DNA from: Gloeobacter morelensis MG652769
GTDB lineage: Bacteria; Cyanobacteriota; Cyanobacteriia; Gloeobacterales; Gloeobacteraceae
Length of the DNA: 64,000 nucleotides
Assembly (NCBI RefSeq): GCF_021018745.1
Contig: NZ_CP063845.1
Coordinates: 1,674,001 to 1,738,000 of the forward strand
Direction: 5' to 3'
Shown: in pieces, positions 1 through 9,040 of the stretch
Layout of the letters: every line of letters begins with the position of its first letter
Position numbering within the stretch: position 1 is the stretch's first letter
Made by a program: the position numbers and the translations under genes
The notes under the pieces: generated by a model
Told to the model about the DNA's origin: nothing
Database searches by the model: none
What the model saw: only the letters and a program-made list of their open reading frames with translations

Positions 1-310
1 AATAGGGCACCTGCATCGAGGCGACGATCCGATCGGCCATGGTGGCATTTACGCGCAAATCGAACGACTGAGATAGCGCGAAGCAGGAAGCGGCATCGAG
101 ACCGAGGCACACCACCGCAGCCCCGGCCTGCAGGCAAGATTCAGCGGTCTGGGTGAGTACTGCTGCGCTCTCGGCGAGCAGTACCAGGTCGTATCCTTCC
201 TCGGCCAGGGCCAGGGCGATCGCGCCGCCGATCAGGCCGTCGGCACCCGCCACCAGGGCGACCCTTGCCTGCGCTTTTGCTGCCACACTTTGGGTCGTTC
301 TTTCTGCCAT
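1..310 (-). CDS. SDR-like NAD(P)-binding protein, N-terminal part only
   Basis: The minus-strand reading starts at an ATG at 310 and runs off the left edge without a stop, so only about the first 103 residues are visible. Residues 17-36 (VALVAGADGLIGGAIALALA) have the beta-strand, glycine-rich loop and helix of a Rossmann nucleotide-binding fold, as in short-chain dehydrogenases. The usual TGxxxGIG pattern is present in a variant form (AGADGLIG). The catalytic YxxxK region would lie outside the window, so neither enzymatic activity nor substrate can be assigned. The SDR family assignment is inferred from this first motif only. Confidence 0.55.
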   Translation of the reverse strand, partial: MAERTTQSVAAKAQARVALVAGADGLIGGAIALALAEEGYDLVLLAESAAVLTQTAESCLQAGAAVVCLGLDAASCFALSQSFDLRVNATMADRIVASMQVPY

Positions 311-607
311 GCCGCTTACCTCTTCATGCGTGGAGATGCTTGAGATTCGACAGCCCTGCCCTGCAGGAACTAGGCAAATACTAAAGACCCGGCGCTCGGG
401 AAACCAGGCGAGAACGACCGAGATTGGTCGACTTAAGCAATTTCGCCGACCCAAACGCCCAGAGTCTCTCCAGGAAAGCGTTGGCGCTCCTGAACAATTT
501 GAAGGACAGGCCTTAAGTGGCCGAAGTTGCGCAATTGTATCCGAGCGGTCGCTTCGTTTTAGAGCGCCCGAGTAATCTGAAGTGGCGATCTACGGCTGCC
601 TCTATTC

Positions 608-3600
608 GTGGTTCTACCTCCCAAACAACGCAAGCGCGGCGTCATCCTGACACCCGAAGGTTATCGGCGTCTGCAAGAAGCCCGGCGTCAGATCGAGCGC
701 CAGGAAAATCTGGGCGGGCGCTATTCTCTTGAAAACTTGAGTGAGCGCACCGGCCTCGCGCCCCGGACCGTCACCCGCGTTTTGGGCTGCGCGGAGGGCG
801 TCGACAAGCAGACCCTGGAGCAGTTGTTCTGGGGTTTCAGTCTGGAACTGACCCGGCGCGATTACACCAGCGTCGGAGCCGCTGTCGCCCGTGAGCCTGC
901 CGCCCCGGACACGCGCGTGAGCCTAGGTGACGCCCCGGATGTGTCGGCTTTTCACGGCCGCACCGAAGAACTGGCGCTCTTGAAGGGCTGGCTCCTGGAG
1001 GACAACTGCCGACTGGTGGCCCTGGTAGGCATGGGGGGCGTCGGCAAGACGTCCCTCGCTCTCAAGTTGTGCGAGCAGGTCCAGGGATCGTTCGAGTACG
1101 TAATCTGGCGTTCGCTGCGCAACGCGCCGCCCGCCCAGGACCTTCTGGCCGAGAGCATCCGTTTTTTCTCGGCCGGCGTTCAGAGCGACCTGCCGCCGGG
1201 TTGCTTTGGCAAGCGCGTTCTGTTGCTGCTCGATCACCTGCGCCGATATCGCTGCTTAATCGTGCTCGACAACGCAGAAACAGTGCTGGGCAGCCAGGGT
1301 TTGAGCGGCTACTGCGACGGATTCGCAGACTACAGCGAGCTGTTGCGCTGCATCGGCAGCACCGCCCACCGCAGTTGCCTGATCCTGACCAGCCGCGAGA
1401 AACCCCAGGAAGTGGCAGTCGGCGAAGGGCGGACCCAGCCGGTCCGCTCGCTCCTGGTGGGCGGTTTACCGGCGGAGTTCGGCCAGAAGATTTTGCTTGA
1501 AAAAGACCTGCAATCGCCGAGCGACGAGGCGGCGCGTGCCCTAGTTCAGCACTACTCGGGCAATCCCCTCGCGCTCAAGATGGCGGCCAGCACAATCCAG
1601 GACCTCTTCGCGGGCAGCATCTCCGACTTTATGGCCCAGGGCACGACTATCTTCGGTGAAATTCGCAACCTGCTCGCTCAGCAGTTCAACCGGCTTTCCG
1701 AGATCGAGCGCGAAATCGCCTACTGGCTTGCCATCAACCGCGAGCCGGCTTCCCAGGCGCAGTTGCGCGAAGACCTACTCTCGCCCGTCTCTAAGCTGCG
1801 GTTGCTCGAAGCGCTCGAATCACTCGGGCGGCGCTCCCTGACCGAGTCGCAGGCCACCCGCTTTACCCTGCAACCCGTTGCCCTCGAATATTTGACCGGG
1901 CGGTTGGTAGAGCAGATCTACGAAGAACTGGTCTGCGGTCGGCTGGTGCTCTTGAAAAGCCACGCCCTGCTCAAACCCCAGGGCACGGAGTATATCCAGA
2001 GCATGCAGGTCCGCTTCATCCTGGTGCCCCTGCTCGAACAATTGGTCGCCACTTTCGGCGGCAAAGAAGCGGCCGTACAACACCTCAGCCGCCTGCTGCC
2101 GGTCCTGCGCCAGGACGGCACGGAGCCCGGCTACGCTGCGGGCAACTTATTTAATCTGCTGCGCCGCCTGGGTGCCGATTTGAGCGGCTGCGACTTTTCT
2201 AACTTGAGCGTCTGGCAGGCCGACTTGCGGGGTGCCGATTTGCACCGCCTCAATTTTGCCGGTGCCAACCTGGCAAAGTCGGTCTTCACCGAGGCGGTGG
2301 GCAACGTCACCTCCCTCGCTTTCAGTCCCGACGGACGGTTGCTGGCGACGGGAGACGCAGGCAGTGTCGTTCGGTTGTGGCAGGTGGCCGATGGCAAGCA
2401 ACTGGCCCTCTGCGAGGGCCACACGAGCTGGGTGTGGGCGGTCGCCTTCAGCCCCGACGGCCGCTTGATTGCCAGCGGCAGCATGGATCAGACCGTCAAG
2501 TTGTGGGACGCACGCACCTGCGAATGCATCAAGACCCTGCGTGGCCACGTCGGCCGCGTGCTGACAGTTGCCTTCAGCCCCGACGGGCGTACCCTGCTGA
2601 GCGCCGGCGACGACCAGGTAATCCGGCTCTGGGACGTCAGCTCGGGCGAGCCTGGCCTGCACCTGCCAGGCCACAACCGCTGCGTTTCCTCCGCCTGTTT
2701 TAGCCCCGACGGCCGCTTGATTGCCAGCGGCAGCATGGACCGCACCGTGCGCCTCTGGGACGCTTCCGGCCAGTGTCTTAAGACGCTCGAGGGCCACGAC
2801 CACTGCGTCTTTTCAGTCGCCTTCGCGCCGGATGGCCAGACGATCGCCAGCGCCAGCCAGGACGAGACGATCAAACTCTGGCAGGTCGCAACTGGCGAAT
2901 GCGAGGGCACCCTGCGCGGCCACACCAGCGTCGTCCACTCGCTGAGCTTCAGCCCCGACGGCCGGACCATCGCCAGCGCCAGCCAGGACGAGACGATCAA
3001 ACTCTGGCAGGTCGCAACTGGCGAATGCGAGGGCACCCTGCGCGGCCACGAAGGTTGGGTGTGGGCAGTTGCCTTCAGCCCCGACGGCGAGACAATTGCC
3101 AGCGGCTGCGCCGCCCGGTCGGTGCGCTTCTGGGACACCATGGCCGGGATTTGCCGCATCGCCCTGCAGGGACACGCCAACTTGATGTTCTCGGTGGCCT
3201 TTGCCCCCGACGGCCGCACGCTCGCCAGCAGCAGTTCCGACCGGCGGGTTTACCTGTGGGATGTCGAAGGCAAAAGCTGCCTGGATACGTTGCGCGGCCA
3301 CGAGGGTTGGGTACTCTCGGTCGCTACTTCCCCGGACGGCCGCACGCTCGCGAGTACCGGCATGGACCGTACGATCCGGCTCTGGAATACCCGTAGCGGC
3401 GCGTGCTCGAAAATTTTGCGCGGCCACGAGGGCTGGGTCTGGTCGGTGGCCTTCAGTCCAGATAGTCAGACCATCGCCAGTGCCAGCACCGATCAGACTG
3501 TGCGGCTGTGGGATGCGCGCACGGGGCAGTGCTTGCAGGTCCTGCGCGGCCACAGCGACTGGGTGTGCACGGCCAACTTCAGCCCCGACGGCCGCCTGGT

Positions 3601-4186
3601 GGCAAGCGGCAGCCAGGACGGTACGACCCGACTCTGGCAGACCGATACCGGCGATTGCCTGCACACCCTCGCAGGGGAAGGTGGCAGCGTGCGGGCGGTG
3701 AGCTTCAGCCCGACTGCGCCGCTTGTCGCCTGTGTTGGCGACGGGCGCACCGTCCGCATCTGGGACATCCAGGCTAAAAGCTGGCTCCATGTCCTGGAGG
3801 GCCACACCAACGGGATCTGGGCTGCTGCCTTCGCTCCTGATGGGCAAACGCTTGCCACCGCCGGTGCCGACCGGACAATCAGGCTGTGGGATGTGAAAGC
3901 GGGCTGCAACCTGCGCGTTCTGGAGGGCCACACCAATCTGGTCTTCGACGTCACCTTCAGCCCGGACGGAGGCCTGATGGCGAGCGGCAGCCAGGACGAG
4001 ACGGTCAAACTCTGGCAACCCGACGGCACCTGCGACACCCTGGTGGCGACCAAACCTTACGAAGGGATGAACATCGCCGGCGTCCTGGGGTTGACCAGGG
4101 CTCAGAAGCTCACCCTCAAAGCGCTGGGAGCGGTAGAGGTGTTCGCTGAGGACTCTAGTCAGACCCGGCCAAACTCCAATACTTAG
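608..4186 (+). CDS. STAND-type NB-ARC ATPase with pentapeptide and 14 WD40 repeats
   Basis: This is a 1192-residue protein. Residues 1-85 are a basic, helical domain often found at the start of cyanobacterial WD40 ATPases. Residues 115-430 are an NB-ARC/STAND ATPase with Walker A at about 141-149 (GMGGVGKTS) and a Walker B-like strand (CLIVLDNAE). Residues 525-555 have pentapeptide-like A(D/N)L repeats. From about 558 to the end there are 14 WD40 repeats, each about 42 residues with GH, SPDG and LWD signatures, enough for two seven-bladed propellers. Such proteins bind a ligand or partner through the propellers and switch by nucleotide exchange and oligomerisation. Roles in signalling or defence are known for the family, but nothing here fixes the ligand. 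The start is a GTG and an upstream alternative cannot be excluded. Confidence 0.9.
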   Translation: MVLPPKQRKRGVILTPEGYRRLQEARRQIERQENLGGRYSLENLSERTGLAPRTVTRVLGCAEGVDKQTLEQLFWGFSLELTRRDYTSVGAAVAREPAAPDTRVSLGDAPDVSAFHGRTEELALLKGWLLEDNCRLVALVGMGGVGKTSLALKLCEQVQGSFEYVIWRSLRNAPPAQDLLAESIRFFSAGVQSDLPPGCFGKRVLLLLDHLRRYRCLIVLDNAETVLGSQGLSGYCDGFADYSELLRCIGSTAHRSCLILTSREKPQEVAVGEGRTQPVRSLLVGGLPAEFGQKILLEKDLQSPSDEAARALVQHYSGNPLALKMAASTIQDLFAGSISDFMAQGTTIFGEIRNLLAQQFNRLSEIEREIAYWLAINREPASQAQLREDLLSPVSKLRLLEALESLGRRSLTESQATRFTLQPVALEYLTGRLVEQIYEELVCGRLVLLKSHALLKPQGTEYIQSMQVRFILVPLLEQLVATFGGKEAAVQHLSRLLPVLRQDGTEPGYAAGNLFNLLRRLGADLSGCDFSNLSVWQADLRGADLHRLNFAGANLAKSVFTEAVGNVTSLAFSPDGRLLATGDAGSVVRLWQVADGKQLALCEGHTSWVWAVAFSPDGRLIASGSMDQTVKLWDARTCECIKTLRGHVGRVLTVAFSPDGRTLLSAGDDQVIRLWDVSSGEPGLHLPGHNRCVSSACFSPDGRLIASGSMDRTVRLWDASGQCLKTLEGHDHCVFSVAFAPDGQTIASASQDETIKLWQVATGECEGTLRGHTSVVHSLSFSPDGRTIASASQDETIKLWQVATGECEGTLRGHEGWVWAVAFSPDGETIASGCAARSVRFWDTMAGICRIALQGHANLMFSVAFAPDGRTLASSSSDRRVYLWDVEGKSCLDTLRGHEGWVLSVATSPDGRTLASTGMDRTIRLWNTRSGACSKILRGHEGWVWSVAFSPDSQTIASASTDQTVRLWDARTGQCLQVLRGHSDWVCTANFSPDGRLVASGSQDGTTRLWQTDTGDCLHTLAGEGGSVRAVSFSPTAPLVACVGDGRTVRIWDIQAKSWLHVLEGHTNGIWAAAFAPDGQTLATAGADRTIRLWDVKAGCNLRVLEGHTNLVFDVTFSPDGGLMASGSQDETVKLWQPDGTCDTLVATKPYEGMNIAGVLGLTRAQKLTLKALGAVEVFAEDSSQTRPNSNT
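2843..3049 (+). repeat. Two identical 81-bp WD40 blade segments
   Basis: Positions 2843-2923 and 2969-3049 are identical at DNA level over 81 bases and are offset by 126 bases, exactly one 42-residue WD40 repeat. The other blades of the same gene differ much more. This indicates a recent blade duplication or gene conversion within the propeller. Confidence 0.85.
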
Positions 4187-4266
4187 CCGCCAAATGCCAG
4201 GTACCTGCCGGACCAATGCCAGAAAATCGGTCAGCCTGTCTTGTTGACCGGCCCCACAGCGATATA

Positions 4267-4289
4267 TAGTAAGTTACCTAATTACTAGG
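4267..4289. promoter_or_regulatory. Inverted repeat upstream of marR, possible operator
   Basis: TAGTAA (4267-4272) and TTACTA (4282-4287) are perfect inverted arms separated by 9 bases, and CCTA/TAGG half-sites lie inside the same stretch. The site ends about 8 bases before the ATG of the MarR-family gene, where an autorepressor would be expected to bind. The assignment is by position and symmetry only. Confidence 0.35.
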
Positions 4290-4296
4290 CCCTACT

Positions 4297-4806
4297 ATGT
4301 TCACACTGCCCGACATGCCACAGGATAGGGCGTTGCTGGAGTTGGCGGACCGGTTCTCCGAATCGGAAGCGACTTCTTTGAGAGCTTTCCTCGCCTTCCT
4401 GCACGTATCTGCTGAGACTTACGAAGCTTACAACGTCCACTTTGCCCGCTACGGCCTCTCGGACGGCCGCTTCAGCCTGTTGATTTTTCTGCTCACCGAG
4501 CGCGAGCGGGTGCCGACGCCCTCCGACTGTGCCGAGCGGTTGGGAGTCACCCGCGCGACCGTCACGGGGTTGCTCGACGGTCTGGAGCGCGAAGGGTTGA
4601 TCAGAAGGGAGCCACGCCCCGGAGACGGACGGATGTTGGCGGTGCGCCTGACCGAACAGGGTCAAAAACTGCTCGAAGGCATGCTGCCAGACCATTTTCG
4701 GCGGATCACGGCCTGTACCTCCCACCTCACCGAAATCGAAAAAATGCTGCTGATCTCGCTCGTTGTCAGGCTGCGGTCCGGGCTACCTGCCTTGAGCGAG
4801 CGTTAA
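4297..4806 (+). CDS. MarR-family transcriptional regulator
   Basis: The 169-residue length is normal for MarR proteins. The central winged helix is clear: a helix pair around PTPSDCAERLGVTRATVTGL, then a wing with REPRPGDGRMLAVRLTEQG, close to the family DxRxxxxxLT signature. These proteins bind palindromic operators as dimers and are usually released by a small aromatic or lipid ligand. It sits just upstream of, and on the same strand as, the acyl carrier protein/ketosynthase cluster, so control of that cluster is a reasonable guess. A hairpin between them suggests a separate transcript. Confidence 0.9.
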   Translation: MFTLPDMPQDRALLELADRFSESEATSLRAFLAFLHVSAETYEAYNVHFARYGLSDGRFSLLIFLLTERERVPTPSDCAERLGVTRATVTGLLDGLEREGLIRREPRPGDGRMLAVRLTEQGQKLLEGMLPDHFRRITACTSHLTEIEKMLLISLVVRLRSGLPALSER

Positions 4807-4827
4807 AGCGTCAAATCGAGCACTCTC

Positions 4828-4870
4828 AGAGCCCTCTGCCAGGAAATGGCAGGAAATGGCAGAGGGCTCT
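4828..4870 (+). terminator. Hairpin after marR, possible terminator
   Basis: A perfect 14-bp stem (4828-4841 with 4857-4870) and a 15-base loop that contains a direct repeat of GGAAATGGCA. No T-run follows, so it is not a classical intrinsic terminator. It may act as a weak terminator or protect the 3' end. Confidence 0.5.
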
Positions 4871-4955
4871 ACTGAACATCGGCAAAGGGAATCCGATGGC
4901 AAAAATAAAATTTTTATTAGCCGCCATACTAAACTGAGATTCTCTGCTATCCTAT

Positions 4956-4970
4956 GTTTAGGTGCCTAAC
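4956..4970. promoter_or_regulatory. Palindrome upstream of the acyl-carrier cluster
   Basis: The stretch GTTTAGGTGCCTAAC has TTAGG/CCTAA arms with a 2-base centre, a form used by MarR-type dimers. It lies in the 376-base non-coding leader (4807-5182) before the acyl carrier protein gene. That leader also holds the hairpin above and an AT-rich stretch at 4901-4935, and no gene is seen in it. Confidence 0.3.
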
Positions 4971-5182
4971 AAATAGGCTCCTCCCCGCGCTAGCACCGCT
5001 GAATCCTTCCCCGGTGCTCCGACGTCTTCCAGAAGTCCGTTGAAGCGACGGCCAGCGAACGAAGTTTCTTTATTTTCAGACCCAAGCGGAACGTCCTGCC
5101 CAGTGACTCCGCGTGCTCGTTGACAAAGACGGGCTGTTTTAAGCAAAACCTTAGACCGCATCCATCTAAATAGGAGCGAGAA

Positions 5183-5455
5183 ATGAACCTCAACAGCATT
5201 GCTCATGTCCTCGACCAGATGCACATCTCGTTTGCAGAGTTGACCGTCTATTCGAAGCTCAAGGCGGATGTCGGGATGGATTCACTGGAACTGATCGACT
5301 TCGAGTGTTTCTTTGAGGAACTATTTGATGTCCGTCTCGATTGGGAGACCATGCAGGCCGATCCGTCGGTGCAGGAAGTGATCGACCAGGCTCTCTCAAA
5401 GCTGAGTGCAGGGGCAGTCCAGACCAGATGCTGCCACTCCGCTCTGGCCGCTTAG
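5183..5455 (+). CDS. Acyl carrier protein-like protein
   Basis: The 90-residue protein contains the phosphopantetheine attachment motif GMDSLELIDFE with Ser34 as the predicted carrier serine, followed by the helix pattern of an ACP (FFEELFDVRLDWETM). The N-terminal helix is short and the acidic character is moderate. It would carry acyl chains for the two ketosynthase-like proteins encoded immediately downstream. A good Shine-Dalgarno (TAGGAG) precedes the ATG. It is probably not the housekeeping fatty-acid ACP, because of its context and unusual sequence, but this was not tested against the rest of the genome. Confidence 0.85.
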   Translation: MNLNSIAHVLDQMHISFAELTVYSKLKADVGMDSLELIDFECFFEELFDVRLDWETMQADPSVQEVIDQALSKLSAGAVQTRCCHSALAA

Positions 5456-5490
5456 CTGCCACTGATCTCAACCGCAAGAGGGCTCATTTC

Positions 5491-6738
5491 ATGAAAATCA
5501 GGCGAGTCGTAGTCACCGGCATGGGAACCATCAATCCGATTGGTGGCAACTTGAAAGACTTCTGGTCCAACTGTTGCCGTGGAACCTCAGGAGTGCAGCC
5601 GATTTCGGCGTTCGAGATTCCAGACGGGCAGAGTAAGATTGCCGGTCTTGTTAAAGAAGGTGGCCCGACGGCTGCGCTGGTGGACCGCAGCTACCACTTC
5701 ACCCTGACCTGTGCTGCAGAAGCGCTGCAAATGGCGGGCCTCGGAGACGGGCAAGCCGCGCAGAACCTGGACCCGGAGCGCTGCGGCGTCTTTCTCGGCA
5801 CCTCCACAGCGCAACTGGGCAGCATGGAACAGGAGTATCTCGACCGAACCGGCGCCCCTGCGCAGCCCAATCTGCTGAGTGCACCGGACACTTTTCATTT
5901 CAATACCGTCGCCAGGCTCCTGGCTAGGCACTTTAACTTTCAAGGCGGGCACGCAACGCTTTCCACCGCCTGCGCCAGTGCGCTCGATGCCATCGGCTAC
6001 GCCGTGGATGCGATCCGCTGCGGGGAGGTCGATGTGGCGGTTACCGGGGCGTCCGAGGCACCGATTACCCCTTTGATGGTGGCCAGTTTCGCCAAGATTG
6101 GGGCCACCTCCCTGCACAACGCCGAACCCCAGAAGGCGAGCCGTCCTTTCGACCAAGACCGCGACGGCTTTGTGCTCGCCGAGGGCTGCGGCATCCTCGT
6201 CCTAGAAGCGCTTGAACACGCCCTCGCTCGCGGTGCCCGAATCTATGCAGAACTGCCCGGCCACGCGAGCACTAATAGCTACCACCACATGACCGGCATT
6301 CCCAAAGACGGCGCGAGCATCGCCCGCTCTGCAATGTTGGCACTCGCAGACGCCGGACTCAGGCCCGCCGACATCGACGCCATCTATGCCCACGGCTCCT
6401 CGACCCCGGCAAATGACCTCGCGGAGTCAAACGCCTTTCACCAGTTGCTTCAGGAGCGGGCCTGCACCGTGCCGGTCACCTCTCTCAAGTCGCAATACGG
6501 AAATCCGCTCTCGGCGTCGAGCAGCATCGAGGTGATCGCGGCGGTGATGTCCATCAACACAGGTCTCATCCCACCTACTATCAACCTGGAGCGACAAGAT
6601 CCGCTGATTGCGCTCGATGTCGTTGCACCCGAGGCCCGGCAGATTCCGGTGCGCTGCGTGCTGAAGACCGGCAGCGGTTTTTCTGGAATCCACTCAAGCT
6701 TGATCATTCGCCAATACGAGGGGGCAGCTCATGGATAA
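5491..6738 (+). CDS. Beta-ketoacyl synthase (KS-alpha-like) with Cys-His-Asn triad
   Basis: The 415-residue thiolase-fold condensing enzyme resembles FabF and type II polyketide KS-alpha subunits. The nucleophile Cys161 is present in LSTACASALDAI, and His301 is present in YAHGSSTPANDL. The second catalytic histidine, normally in KSxxGH, is replaced by Asn338 (LKSQYGNPLS). The glycine-rich C-terminal loop (GSGFSGIHSSL) is retained. The ATG at 5491 was chosen because it has an AGAGG ribosome site and because homology to the family begins there; an in-frame extension upstream lies across the ACP gene. The gene overlaps the next by 8 bases, as in KS-alpha/chain-length-factor pairs. Confidence 0.88.
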   Translation: MKIRRVVVTGMGTINPIGGNLKDFWSNCCRGTSGVQPISAFEIPDGQSKIAGLVKEGGPTAALVDRSYHFTLTCAAEALQMAGLGDGQAAQNLDPERCGVFLGTSTAQLGSMEQEYLDRTGAPAQPNLLSAPDTFHFNTVARLLARHFNFQGGHATLSTACASALDAIGYAVDAIRCGEVDVAVTGASEAPITPLMVASFAKIGATSLHNAEPQKASRPFDQDRDGFVLAEGCGILVLEALEHALARGARIYAELPGHASTNSYHHMTGIPKDGASIARSAMLALADAGLRPADIDAIYAHGSSTPANDLAESNAFHQLLQERACTVPVTSLKSQYGNPLSASSSIEVIAAVMSINTGLIPPTINLERQDPLIALDVVAPEARQIPVRCVLKTGSGFSGIHSSLIIRQYEGAAHG

Positions 6739-7906
6739 CCACCAACCCTGCGCAATCACCGGAGCCGGCTTTGCAACGCCGATGGGCAACGACCCAGATG
6801 CGCTCTGGAACACCTTGCAGCAGGGCAAGCCTCTGTTTGACGCCTTCGCACCCCAGCGAAACGGCCCGACCTACCAGGTCGCCCGCGTCGACGACAGCAC
6901 TCTCGACCACCGACTACCCAGTCGGCAGCTGCGCAAGCTCGACCGCTTCACGATCCTGGCGTTGGCGGCCTCGCACCAGGCACTCGCCAGTTGCGGCCTC
7001 GAAATTAGCGACAGTAATCGCGATCGGATCGGCATCTACCTTGGCAACAGCACCGGCGGCTGGGGTTTTGTGGAGCCAATCCTGGGAGCGGTCTACGCAA
7101 CCCAGATGCAGACAGCCAGTCCTTACGCAATCACCGCCTGGTTTCCCTCGGCTCCCCAGGGTGAGATTTCGATCCTCTACAAGATTGGCGGCTTCAGCAA
7201 AACAATCGCCGCCGACCGGATCAGTGCCGGGCTGGCCCTGGAGCAGGCCGTCCGCAAAATTGACGCCGGCTCGATGGATGTGATGCTCGTCGGCGGTGCC
7301 GAATCGCCCTTCAGCGGCATGTTGTTAAACGCCTACCAGGCGAGCGGACACTCCTCGAGCAGCGGGCAATACCGGCCCTTCAGCCGTGCGGCGGACGGTA
7401 GCCTGCTCGGCGAAGGGGCAGCTCTGTTCGTCGTCGAAGGGGAAGCACAGGCCCGTGCGCGCGGCGCCAAGATCCACTGCCGGGTACTGGGCATCGGCAA
7501 GGGGCGCTCCTTGGCCTCGGCCATCTGGAATTGCCTGCGCGCGGCGAACGTACCGCAGGAGGCAATCGACTACGTCGTCCTCGACGGCAGTGGCCGCCCG
7601 GACGCAGACCAGGGCGAGTACCAGGCAATTGCCGAAACCCTCGGCCGCAATCCAAATCTGCGCATGAGCGCACCCAAATCCATGTACGGCAACCTCCTGG
7701 GTGCTGGCATGGCGGTAGATCTGTTGATCGGCGCATTGAGTCTGGAGCGACAGGCCGTGCTCCCGACCGCGATATCGGGCTTAATCGAAGTGCCGCCCGT
7801 CGGCAAACATGTCTTGGCCGCCGAGTCCTGCCCTCTAGAGTACGTACTCGTCAACGGGCGCGACGAGGCCGGGCAGAGCCTGGTAGCGCTGCTTGGTCGG
7901 GCCTGA
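6731..7906 (+). CDS. Degenerate ketosynthase, chain-length-factor-like (KS-beta)
   Basis: The 391-residue protein has the overall ketosynthase fold pattern (GNSTGGWGFVEP, MLVGGAESPF, APKSMYGNLLGAG) but lacks all three catalytic residues. The Cys position aligns with Arg163 in IAADRISAGL, the first His with Asp in LDGSGRPDADQ, and the second with Asn in MYGN. Such catalytically dead partners form heterodimers with an active KS and set chain length in type II polyketide and aryl-polyene systems. The start overlaps the KS-alpha stop by 8 bases, suggesting translational coupling and 1:1 synthesis. The chain-length role is inferred from this pairing. Confidence 0.82.
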   Translation: MDNHQPCAITGAGFATPMGNDPDALWNTLQQGKPLFDAFAPQRNGPTYQVARVDDSTLDHRLPSRQLRKLDRFTILALAASHQALASCGLEISDSNRDRIGIYLGNSTGGWGFVEPILGAVYATQMQTASPYAITAWFPSAPQGEISILYKIGGFSKTIAADRISAGLALEQAVRKIDAGSMDVMLVGGAESPFSGMLLNAYQASGHSSSSGQYRPFSRAADGSLLGEGAALFVVEGEAQARARGAKIHCRVLGIGKGRSLASAIWNCLRAANVPQEAIDYVVLDGSGRPDADQGEYQAIAETLGRNPNLRMSAPKSMYGNLLGAGMAVDLLIGALSLERQAVLPTAISGLIEVPPVGKHVLAAESCPLEYVLVNGRDEAGQSLVALLGRA

Positions 7907-7921
7907 CCCGCTTCTGGCGGC

Positions 7922-8035
7922 AGCTTGGCTTGGTGCTCCGGGGTGTCGGGGAGGGGCACCCCCTTGACCCGGGGCGGTTGGAGAGCGCGAGAGGGGGTGC
8001 CCCCTCTCGCCCATCCGCAGTCGTGCGAAGCCAAA
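7922..8035. repeat. Large GC-rich inverted repeat, dispersed element
   Basis: Two copies of a roughly 45-base motif face each other. One, read on the minus strand, lies at about 7922-7972 and the other, on plus, at about 7991-8035; both end in a CAAGCCAA/GAAGCCAA-like tail. The plus copy contains an 11-bp perfect stem (7987-7997 with 8000-8010, centre TG). A third, single copy lies at about 18545-18592. It fills the gap between the ketosynthase pair and ribF and looks like a small non-autonomous or REP-like repeat. Confidence 0.6.
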
Positions 8036-8131
8036 AAGCCCCAGCAGGCCCAGGAAAAATCTTTCATGTGTACCATGCCGCTCAACCCGGATGCGATAGG
8101 ACATCCGGCACCTGAAACCTGCTTTCAGCGT

Positions 8132-9040
8132 TTATGGGTGACCGGCGATCACTTTGAGAGCGGCTTCCCGGTCGCGGTGCAACTGCGCCACCAGTTCGCC
8201 CGGCGAGCCGAATTTTTGCTCGGGGCGCAAGTAGCGCTCCAGGGCAATTTTCATGTGCTGGCCGTACAGATCGCCCTCCCAATCGAGCACGTGCACCTCG
8301 ATGGTGCGCCTGAGGCCGTCGAAGGTGGGGCGCAGCCCGAGATTGAGCAATCCCCAGCGCTGCTGCACTCCCCAGCGGGCGCTCACCAGGTACACACCGT
8401 CCTTGGGCAGAAACTTGCGCCCGCTCACCTGCAAATTCGCAGTCGCAAATCCCAACAAACGGCCGCGCTGATCGCCGCGCACCACCTCGCCTTCGAGGCC
8501 GTAGGCGCGGCCGAGCAGCAACCGGGCCAGATCGAGATCGCCGCAGCCTAGAGCTTCGCGAATGGCCGAACTGCTGACGCGCCGGCCCCCTACCTGCCGC
8601 TCCGCCAGAATCTCGATATCAAACGCCCCCGCGCGCGAATAGCTCTGGAGCATCTCGGTGGTGCCGGCGCGCTCCTTGCCGAAGCGAAAGTTCCAGCCCA
8701 CCGAGACAAAGCGCGCCCCCAGCCCCGCCACCAGCACCCGCTCGACAAACGCGCCCGCCTCGGTGGCCGCAATTTGTTCATCAAAAGGCAACACCAGCAC
8801 CTGGGCGATCCCCAGGGCCAAAATCGCGGCGGTGCGCTCGCGCTCCGGAGCCAGCAAAAACCCGGTTTTGCCCGTGAAATATTCGCGCGGATGCGGGTCG
8901 AAGGTCAGAACCGTCGGGATGCCCGCCCGGCCCAGGACTGCCTGGATTACCGCCTGATGGCCGAGGTGAACGCCGTCGAAGTTGCCCAGCGCCACCGCAC
9001 AGGGCGTCGCTACCTCCAAGAGCGATCGAAACACCGCCAT
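8132..9040 (-). CDS. ribF: Bifunctional riboflavin kinase/FAD synthetase
   Basis: The 302-residue protein makes FMN from riboflavin and then FAD. The N-terminal adenylyltransferase half carries GNFDGVHLGHQAVI with the HxGH nucleotidyl-transfer motif. The C-terminal flavokinase half shows GFATANL (usually GFPTANL, so Pro is replaced by Ala), the segment DGVYLV, and NLGLRPTFDG before the catalytic Glu in TIEVHVLDWEGDLYG. Length and domain order are standard. It faces the ketosynthase cluster and is divergent from ndhF, with a 304-base gap (9041-9344) in which no other gene is apparent. Confidence 0.95.
   Translation of the reverse strand: MAVFRSLLEVATPCAVALGNFDGVHLGHQAVIQAVLGRAGIPTVLTFDPHPREYFTGKTGFLLAPERERTAAILALGIAQVLVLPFDEQIAATEAGAFVERVLVAGLGARFVSVGWNFRFGKERAGTTEMLQSYSRAGAFDIEILAERQVGGRRVSSSAIREALGCGDLDLARLLLGRAYGLEGEVVRGDQRGRLLGFATANLQVSGRKFLPKDGVYLVSARWGVQQRWGLLNLGLRPTFDGLRRTIEVHVLDWEGDLYGQHMKIALERYLRPEQKFGSPGELVAQLHRDREAALKVIAGHP

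Follow-up and report, generated by a model that had tools for sequence, protein, structure and literature searches.

The use of two histidines by elongating ketosynthases (KSs), as opposed to a His and an Asn by KAS III enzymes, is an old mechanistic question. Extending type II KSs carry a Cys-His-His triad plus a Lys, while FabH-like priming KSs carry Cys-His-Asn (PMC12664062), the residues that FabH employs for condensation (PMC8024396). In FabF, His303 and His340 each contact the substrate carbonyl (PMC7138838). A natural Cys-His-Asn triad is found in the KS domain of TAS1, which is type I-like in sequence and catalyses the final cyclisation of tenuazonic acid without any condensation (PMC4640141); besides TAS1, our literature search found no paper on Cys-His-Asn enzymes of the KAS I/II kind. 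Type II PKSs are already known from cyanobacteria, the gloPKS of Gloeocapsa having been reconstituted in vitro (PMC11744666), and the Gloeobacter pair presented here is a variant among them. In its type II KS-alpha, nature has exchanged a His for an Asn, and the genome supplies its own control in the form of a Cys-His-His paralogue, so that a direct test by reciprocal swaps is possible. The pair forms, in addition, a separate branch of type II PKSs among cyanobacteria, in an early-branching, thylakoid-less genus. The paralogous canonical module, the genomic island around the unit and the presence of the sole Asn among 34 active KSs aligned were newly found in this analysis.

The window, that is, the whole 64,000-nucleotide stretch analysed, belongs to a 5.1 Mb genome with a chromosome of 4,921,229 bp. 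It contains the following features:

1..8132, no strand: right-hand end of a 59.4-kb island (G000:C1:1,622,716-1,682,132, G000 being the window genome), absent from two other Gloeobacter genomes.
4297..4806, + strand: MarR-family regulator (Pfam MarR_2, 2.9e-12), first gene of a conserved MarR-ACP-KS-alpha-KS-beta unit whose order is kept in the paralogous module and in genome G001.
4828..4870, no strand: perfect 14-nt inverted repeat with a 15-nt loop, directly 3' of the MarR stop codon.
5183..5455, + strand: acyl carrier protein (ACP) of 90 aa, from its open reading frame and NCBIfam match, with the phosphopantetheine Ser34 in GMDSLEL (DSL motif), as in the paralogous ACP.
5491..6738, + strand: KS-alpha of 415 aa, a type II PKS ketosynthase by profile matches, PDB relatives, alignment and tree, with Cys161-His301-Lys333-Asn338.
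6502..6504, + strand: AAT codon of Asn338, from reading frame and alignment, where the second catalytic His is replaced.
6731..7906, + strand: KS-beta or chain-length factor (CLF) of 391 aa, by Pfam, alignment and tree, with Arg163 for Cys and a CLF-type AWF...QG motif.

All four genes of the unit are open frames on the + strand, and the KS-alpha codons for Cys161 (5971-5973), His301 (6391-6393) and Lys333 (6487-6489) are in frame. The reading of this DNA in the earlier note as an ACP followed by a KS-alpha/KS-beta pair overlapping by 8 bases was borne out by the open reading frames and coordinates (overlap at 6731-6738). Both the discrete ACP (5183-5455) and the translational coupling through this overlap are traits of a minimal PKS, the ACP matching the NCBIfam acyl carrier protein model at 2.2e-6, under its curated cut-off. 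Its description as a miniature cluster was right about the ACP/KS-alpha/KS-beta set and incomplete otherwise, as the module edges an NRPS-PKS island and the MarR gene is part of the unit. The inverted repeat at 4828-4870 is possibly a terminator, and the ACP-KS-alpha-KS-beta genes may therefore have their own promoter; a sigma-70-type promoter was looked for and none was found. The predicted structures reached pLDDT values of 35 and 38, below usable quality.

We then placed both KS proteins among their relatives. In the main tree (52 rows; an earlier first tree was also built), KS-alpha fell within a type II KS-alpha clade of 19 members, apart from FabF, and KS-beta within a CLF clade of 17, each with support 100/99; some branches are long and long-branch joins are possible, which leaves the finer order unsure. 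The alpha and beta trees broadly mirrored each other, as expected for partner proteins. The closest PDB relatives of KS-alpha were 6smo_B (298 bits), which we take to be the KS (AntD) of the AntD-AntE pair, and then the actinorhodin KS 1tqy_A. An ordinary duplication of FabF might be suspected from the NCBIfam searches, in which FabF was the top model for both proteins, although at 355.0 and 188.0 bits against a cut-off of 493.75. The tree and the CLF motif of KS-beta speak against it, and AU tests rejected grouping with cyanobacterial FabF for KS-alpha (p 1.9e-7) and for KS-beta (p 2.5e-5), so that we regard this origin as refuted and keep it as barely conceivable. The phylogeny thus agrees with the type II kind that the earlier note had assigned to the pair, and the FabF duplication that it had named as the outcome contradicting it did not appear. 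Because of the tree placement and the AU rejections, the unit is best classified from its sequences as a type II minimal PKS and not as a FabF duplicate. Likewise ruled out was an origin of alpha and beta from a single KS that duplicated locally in Gloeobacter, a Gloeobacter-only alpha/beta clade being rejected at p 3e-79. Gene conversion between the two KS genes at a shared YGN motif was also rejected, as the codons differ there.

The alignment of KS-beta revealed Arg163 at the Cys position and an Asp for the first His, which marks it as a dead partner, while KS-alpha keeps Cys161; an active-looking KS beside an inactive partner had been proposed before, and the residues agree. The CLF motif of KS-beta reads AWFPSAPQG. 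The same note had correctly seen Arg in place of Gln but had taken it for unusual, which did not hold. Gln occupied the Cys position in 9/10 of the actinobacterial CLFs aligned and Gly in 1/10, whereas all complete non-actinobacterial ones had Arg or Lys, with an Asp in the partial AntE. Since Arg or Lys is usual in the non-actinobacterial CLFs aligned, the Arg of KS-beta is a lineage trait and no peculiarity.

The triad of KS-alpha, in contrast, stands apart from its relatives. Asn338 aligned with the second His of E. coli FabB/FabF, of the act KS, of AntD and of the Gloeobacter paralogues, and the alignment offered no substitute His for the site, which makes the Cys161-His301-Asn338 triad reported earlier a genuine one by alignment. 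Position 338 was His in 33/34 of the Cys-bearing KSs aligned and Asn solely in the window copy, and a motif count over the loci collected gave 47 His and 1 Asn at the second-His position; the two samples overlap and neither is a survey of all KSs. Of the other active-site features, the Cys, the first His and the Lys were retained, and so was the GFSG gating loop. KS-alpha therefore departs from the Cys-His-His plus Lys set of extending KSs in having Asn338 for the second His, with Lys333 present, and it does not belong to the KAS III/FabH-like family either, as its matches were to KAS I/II and FabF models and to ketoacyl-synt Pfam domains. Judged from these comparisons, its likeness to KAS III is limited to the triad residues; it is a type II PKS enzyme by descent to which the label of an ordinary extending KS does not apply. 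Altered catalysis through this KAS III-like triad, such as the different decarboxylation or priming suggested earlier, is plausible.

The window genome carries a second module of this kind at G000:C1:2,972,127-2,975,607, with an orthologue in G001, presumably a G. violaceus-like genome; two further Gloeobacter genomes that were searched carried neither module. The paralogous module has the same four genes in identical order, an ACP with GMDSLEL and a KS-beta with Arg, and shares 57% identity with the window copy in KS-alpha and 47-51% in KS-beta. It differs in its Cys-His-His triad and in the LysR gene that precedes it, and its neighbours are iterative type I PKS genes (KS-AT-ACP, KR-DH) together with ACP, thioesterase and PPTase genes. 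Measured against the paralogues, dN/dS came to about 0.14-0.16 in KS-alpha and to 0.25-0.30 in KS-beta, rough values given that synonymous sites are near saturation. On these rough estimates, purifying selection acts on the KS-alpha gene. That the unit lacks a catalytic His conserved elsewhere, and has no partner genes beside it, would suit a decaying duplicate that has lost its condensing activity and is disappearing; with four open frames, the remaining catalytic residues kept and dN/dS well below 1, such decay is improbable.

Our preferred reading, to which we assign a probability of about 0.6, is that the unit would be a chain-extending minimal type II PKS under a MarR-type regulator, in which Asn338 acts as the Asn of KAS III enzymes does. 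A PPTase would load the ACP and the malonyltransferase of fatty acid synthesis would charge it, after which a KS-alpha/KS-beta heterodimer would elongate a poly-beta-ketoacyl chain attached to Cys161; KS-beta would determine the form of the tunnel and how long the chain grows. By replacing the second His, Asn338 would install the KAS III residue set (Cys-His-Asn) in a KAS II-type fold. Decarboxylative Claisen condensation would most likely be retained, His301 and Asn338 doing the work of the two histidines found elsewhere, and rate, priming or inhibitor sensitivity may be what changed. The heterodimer, its loading partners, its catalytic activity and its product are all predictions here. In favour of this explanation count the tree placements, the mirrored trees, the 8-base overlap, the retained catalytic residues and gating loop, the low dN/dS, the gene order shared with the canonical module, the condensation by FabH with Cys-His-Asn (PMC8024396) and the PPTase gene present in the island; against it count the departure from the Cys-His-His plus Lys rule (PMC12664062), the lack of adjoining aromatic tailoring genes, the low quality of the predicted structures and the roughness of the dN/dS values.

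A change in inhibitor sensitivity could also have been the advantage itself, with a duplicate that tolerates cerulenin or thiolactomycin-type inhibitors and lets polyketide synthesis continue in their presence. FabB His333Asn is reportedly less sensitive to both, and the unit sits within a biosynthetic island; our literature search for the FabB H333N mutant found no paper. Self-resistance KSs are mostly single FabF/FabB copies and no island gene hints at such an inhibitor, which makes a drug-tolerant duplicate very improbable.

The unit is located at the right edge of the 59.4-kb strain-specific island, which carries a hybrid NRPS-PKS. Its assembly-line genes encode an AprA-like protein, three type I PKS proteins and two NRPS proteins with a thioesterase; in addition to the unit, it holds genes for an Asp/Asn hydroxylase, a TEII, an ABC transporter, a PPTase, an HlyD protein and a WD40 protein. 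The last of these (1192 aa, window 608-4186) combines WD40 repeats with an apparent NB-ARC-like P-loop part, and its gene separates the MarR unit from the NRPS-PKS genes. In G001 and G002, the flanks of 1,622,715 and 1,682,133 adjoin, about 430 bp apart, and this empty site holds a small ORF. The simplest reading is that the island was gained in the lineage of the window genome, the alternative being its loss from the others. An interspersed repeat lies at the right island edge (window 7940-8036); a search with it matched 40 places each in G000 and G001 and 28 in G002, mainly further copies of the repeat.

This neighbourhood raises the question of whether Asn338 reflects a changed reaction. 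The pair might form a C-C bond without decarboxylation, as in a Dieckmann-type cyclisation or release, or might carry out just one priming step, perhaps on behalf of the island NRPS-PKS. The cyclisation of tenuazonic acid by the Cys-His-Asn KS domain of TAS1 (PMC4640141), the hybrid NRPS-PKS in the same island and the retention of Cys-His-His by the paralogue all fit such a change. TAS1, however, is a fungal single domain, a cyclase without a CLF, whereas the window unit has kept a CLF and an ACP, which suits chain extension. Moreover, the assembly line already has its own AprA-like protein and integral thioesterase, and the unit lies on the opposite strand to it with the WD40-NB-ARC gene intervening. 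We consider a changed reaction unlikely, and doubt further the fuller version, in which a type II KS-alpha/CLF switched naturally to a KAS III-like Cys-His-Asn and thereby took on another task for the island NRPS-PKS, either priming or closing a ring without decarboxylation.

Such pairs had been expected to be rare in cyanobacteria, and a KS-beta search over 339 genomes sampled across the phylum supports this: matches above 180 bits occurred only in the window genome itself, G043 and G119, and the next, at about 130 bits or less, resembled ordinary FabF. Scans of the genome_contigs and viral_contigs sets detected no true relative (L059 was a FabF), plasmid records had none at 60% identity, and phage records gave matches of at most 29%, among the matches listed. 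The Gloeocapsa gloPKS, G043 and G119 clusters share a cyanobacterial KS-CLF and an ACP with the window unit, and the CLFs of G043 and G119 also carry Arg at the Cys position. They differ in that the KSs of G043 and G119 have Cys-His-His and the KS-alphas lie on another branch; CoA ligase, PPTase and tailoring genes are present in these gloPKS-like clusters, while no CoA ligase or tailoring gene was found within window 4297-9040, which sets the unit apart from the aryl-primed gloPKS type. No KR, cyclase or other aromatic-type tailoring gene adjoins the unit, in contrast to related clusters. The Photorhabdus anthraquinone pair AntD-AntE (PDB 6smo) provides the closest solved KS-alpha, and AntE shares the AWF motif; it differs in its Cys-His-His triad and the Asp at the Cys position of AntE. 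The sole KS from an aryl-polyene-like cluster in the tree, that of Moellerella, branched separately from the Gloeobacter proteins.

The KS-alpha encoded among type II PKS genes on the Staphylococcus haemolyticus plasmid NZ_CP120084.1 was sister to the Gloeobacter KS-alpha (100/99). This cluster likewise has a MarR gene nearby and very similar KS-beta motifs, but it differs in its Cys-His-His triad, in a shorter KS-beta (325 aa) with Lys, and in the cyclase, methyltransferase and oxidoreductase genes alongside. An uncharacterised-looking type II PKS cluster was also seen on the Azospirillum brasilense Sp 7 plasmid NZ_CP012917.1; it includes genes for MarR, for a PPTase and for four antibiotic biosynthesis monooxygenases.
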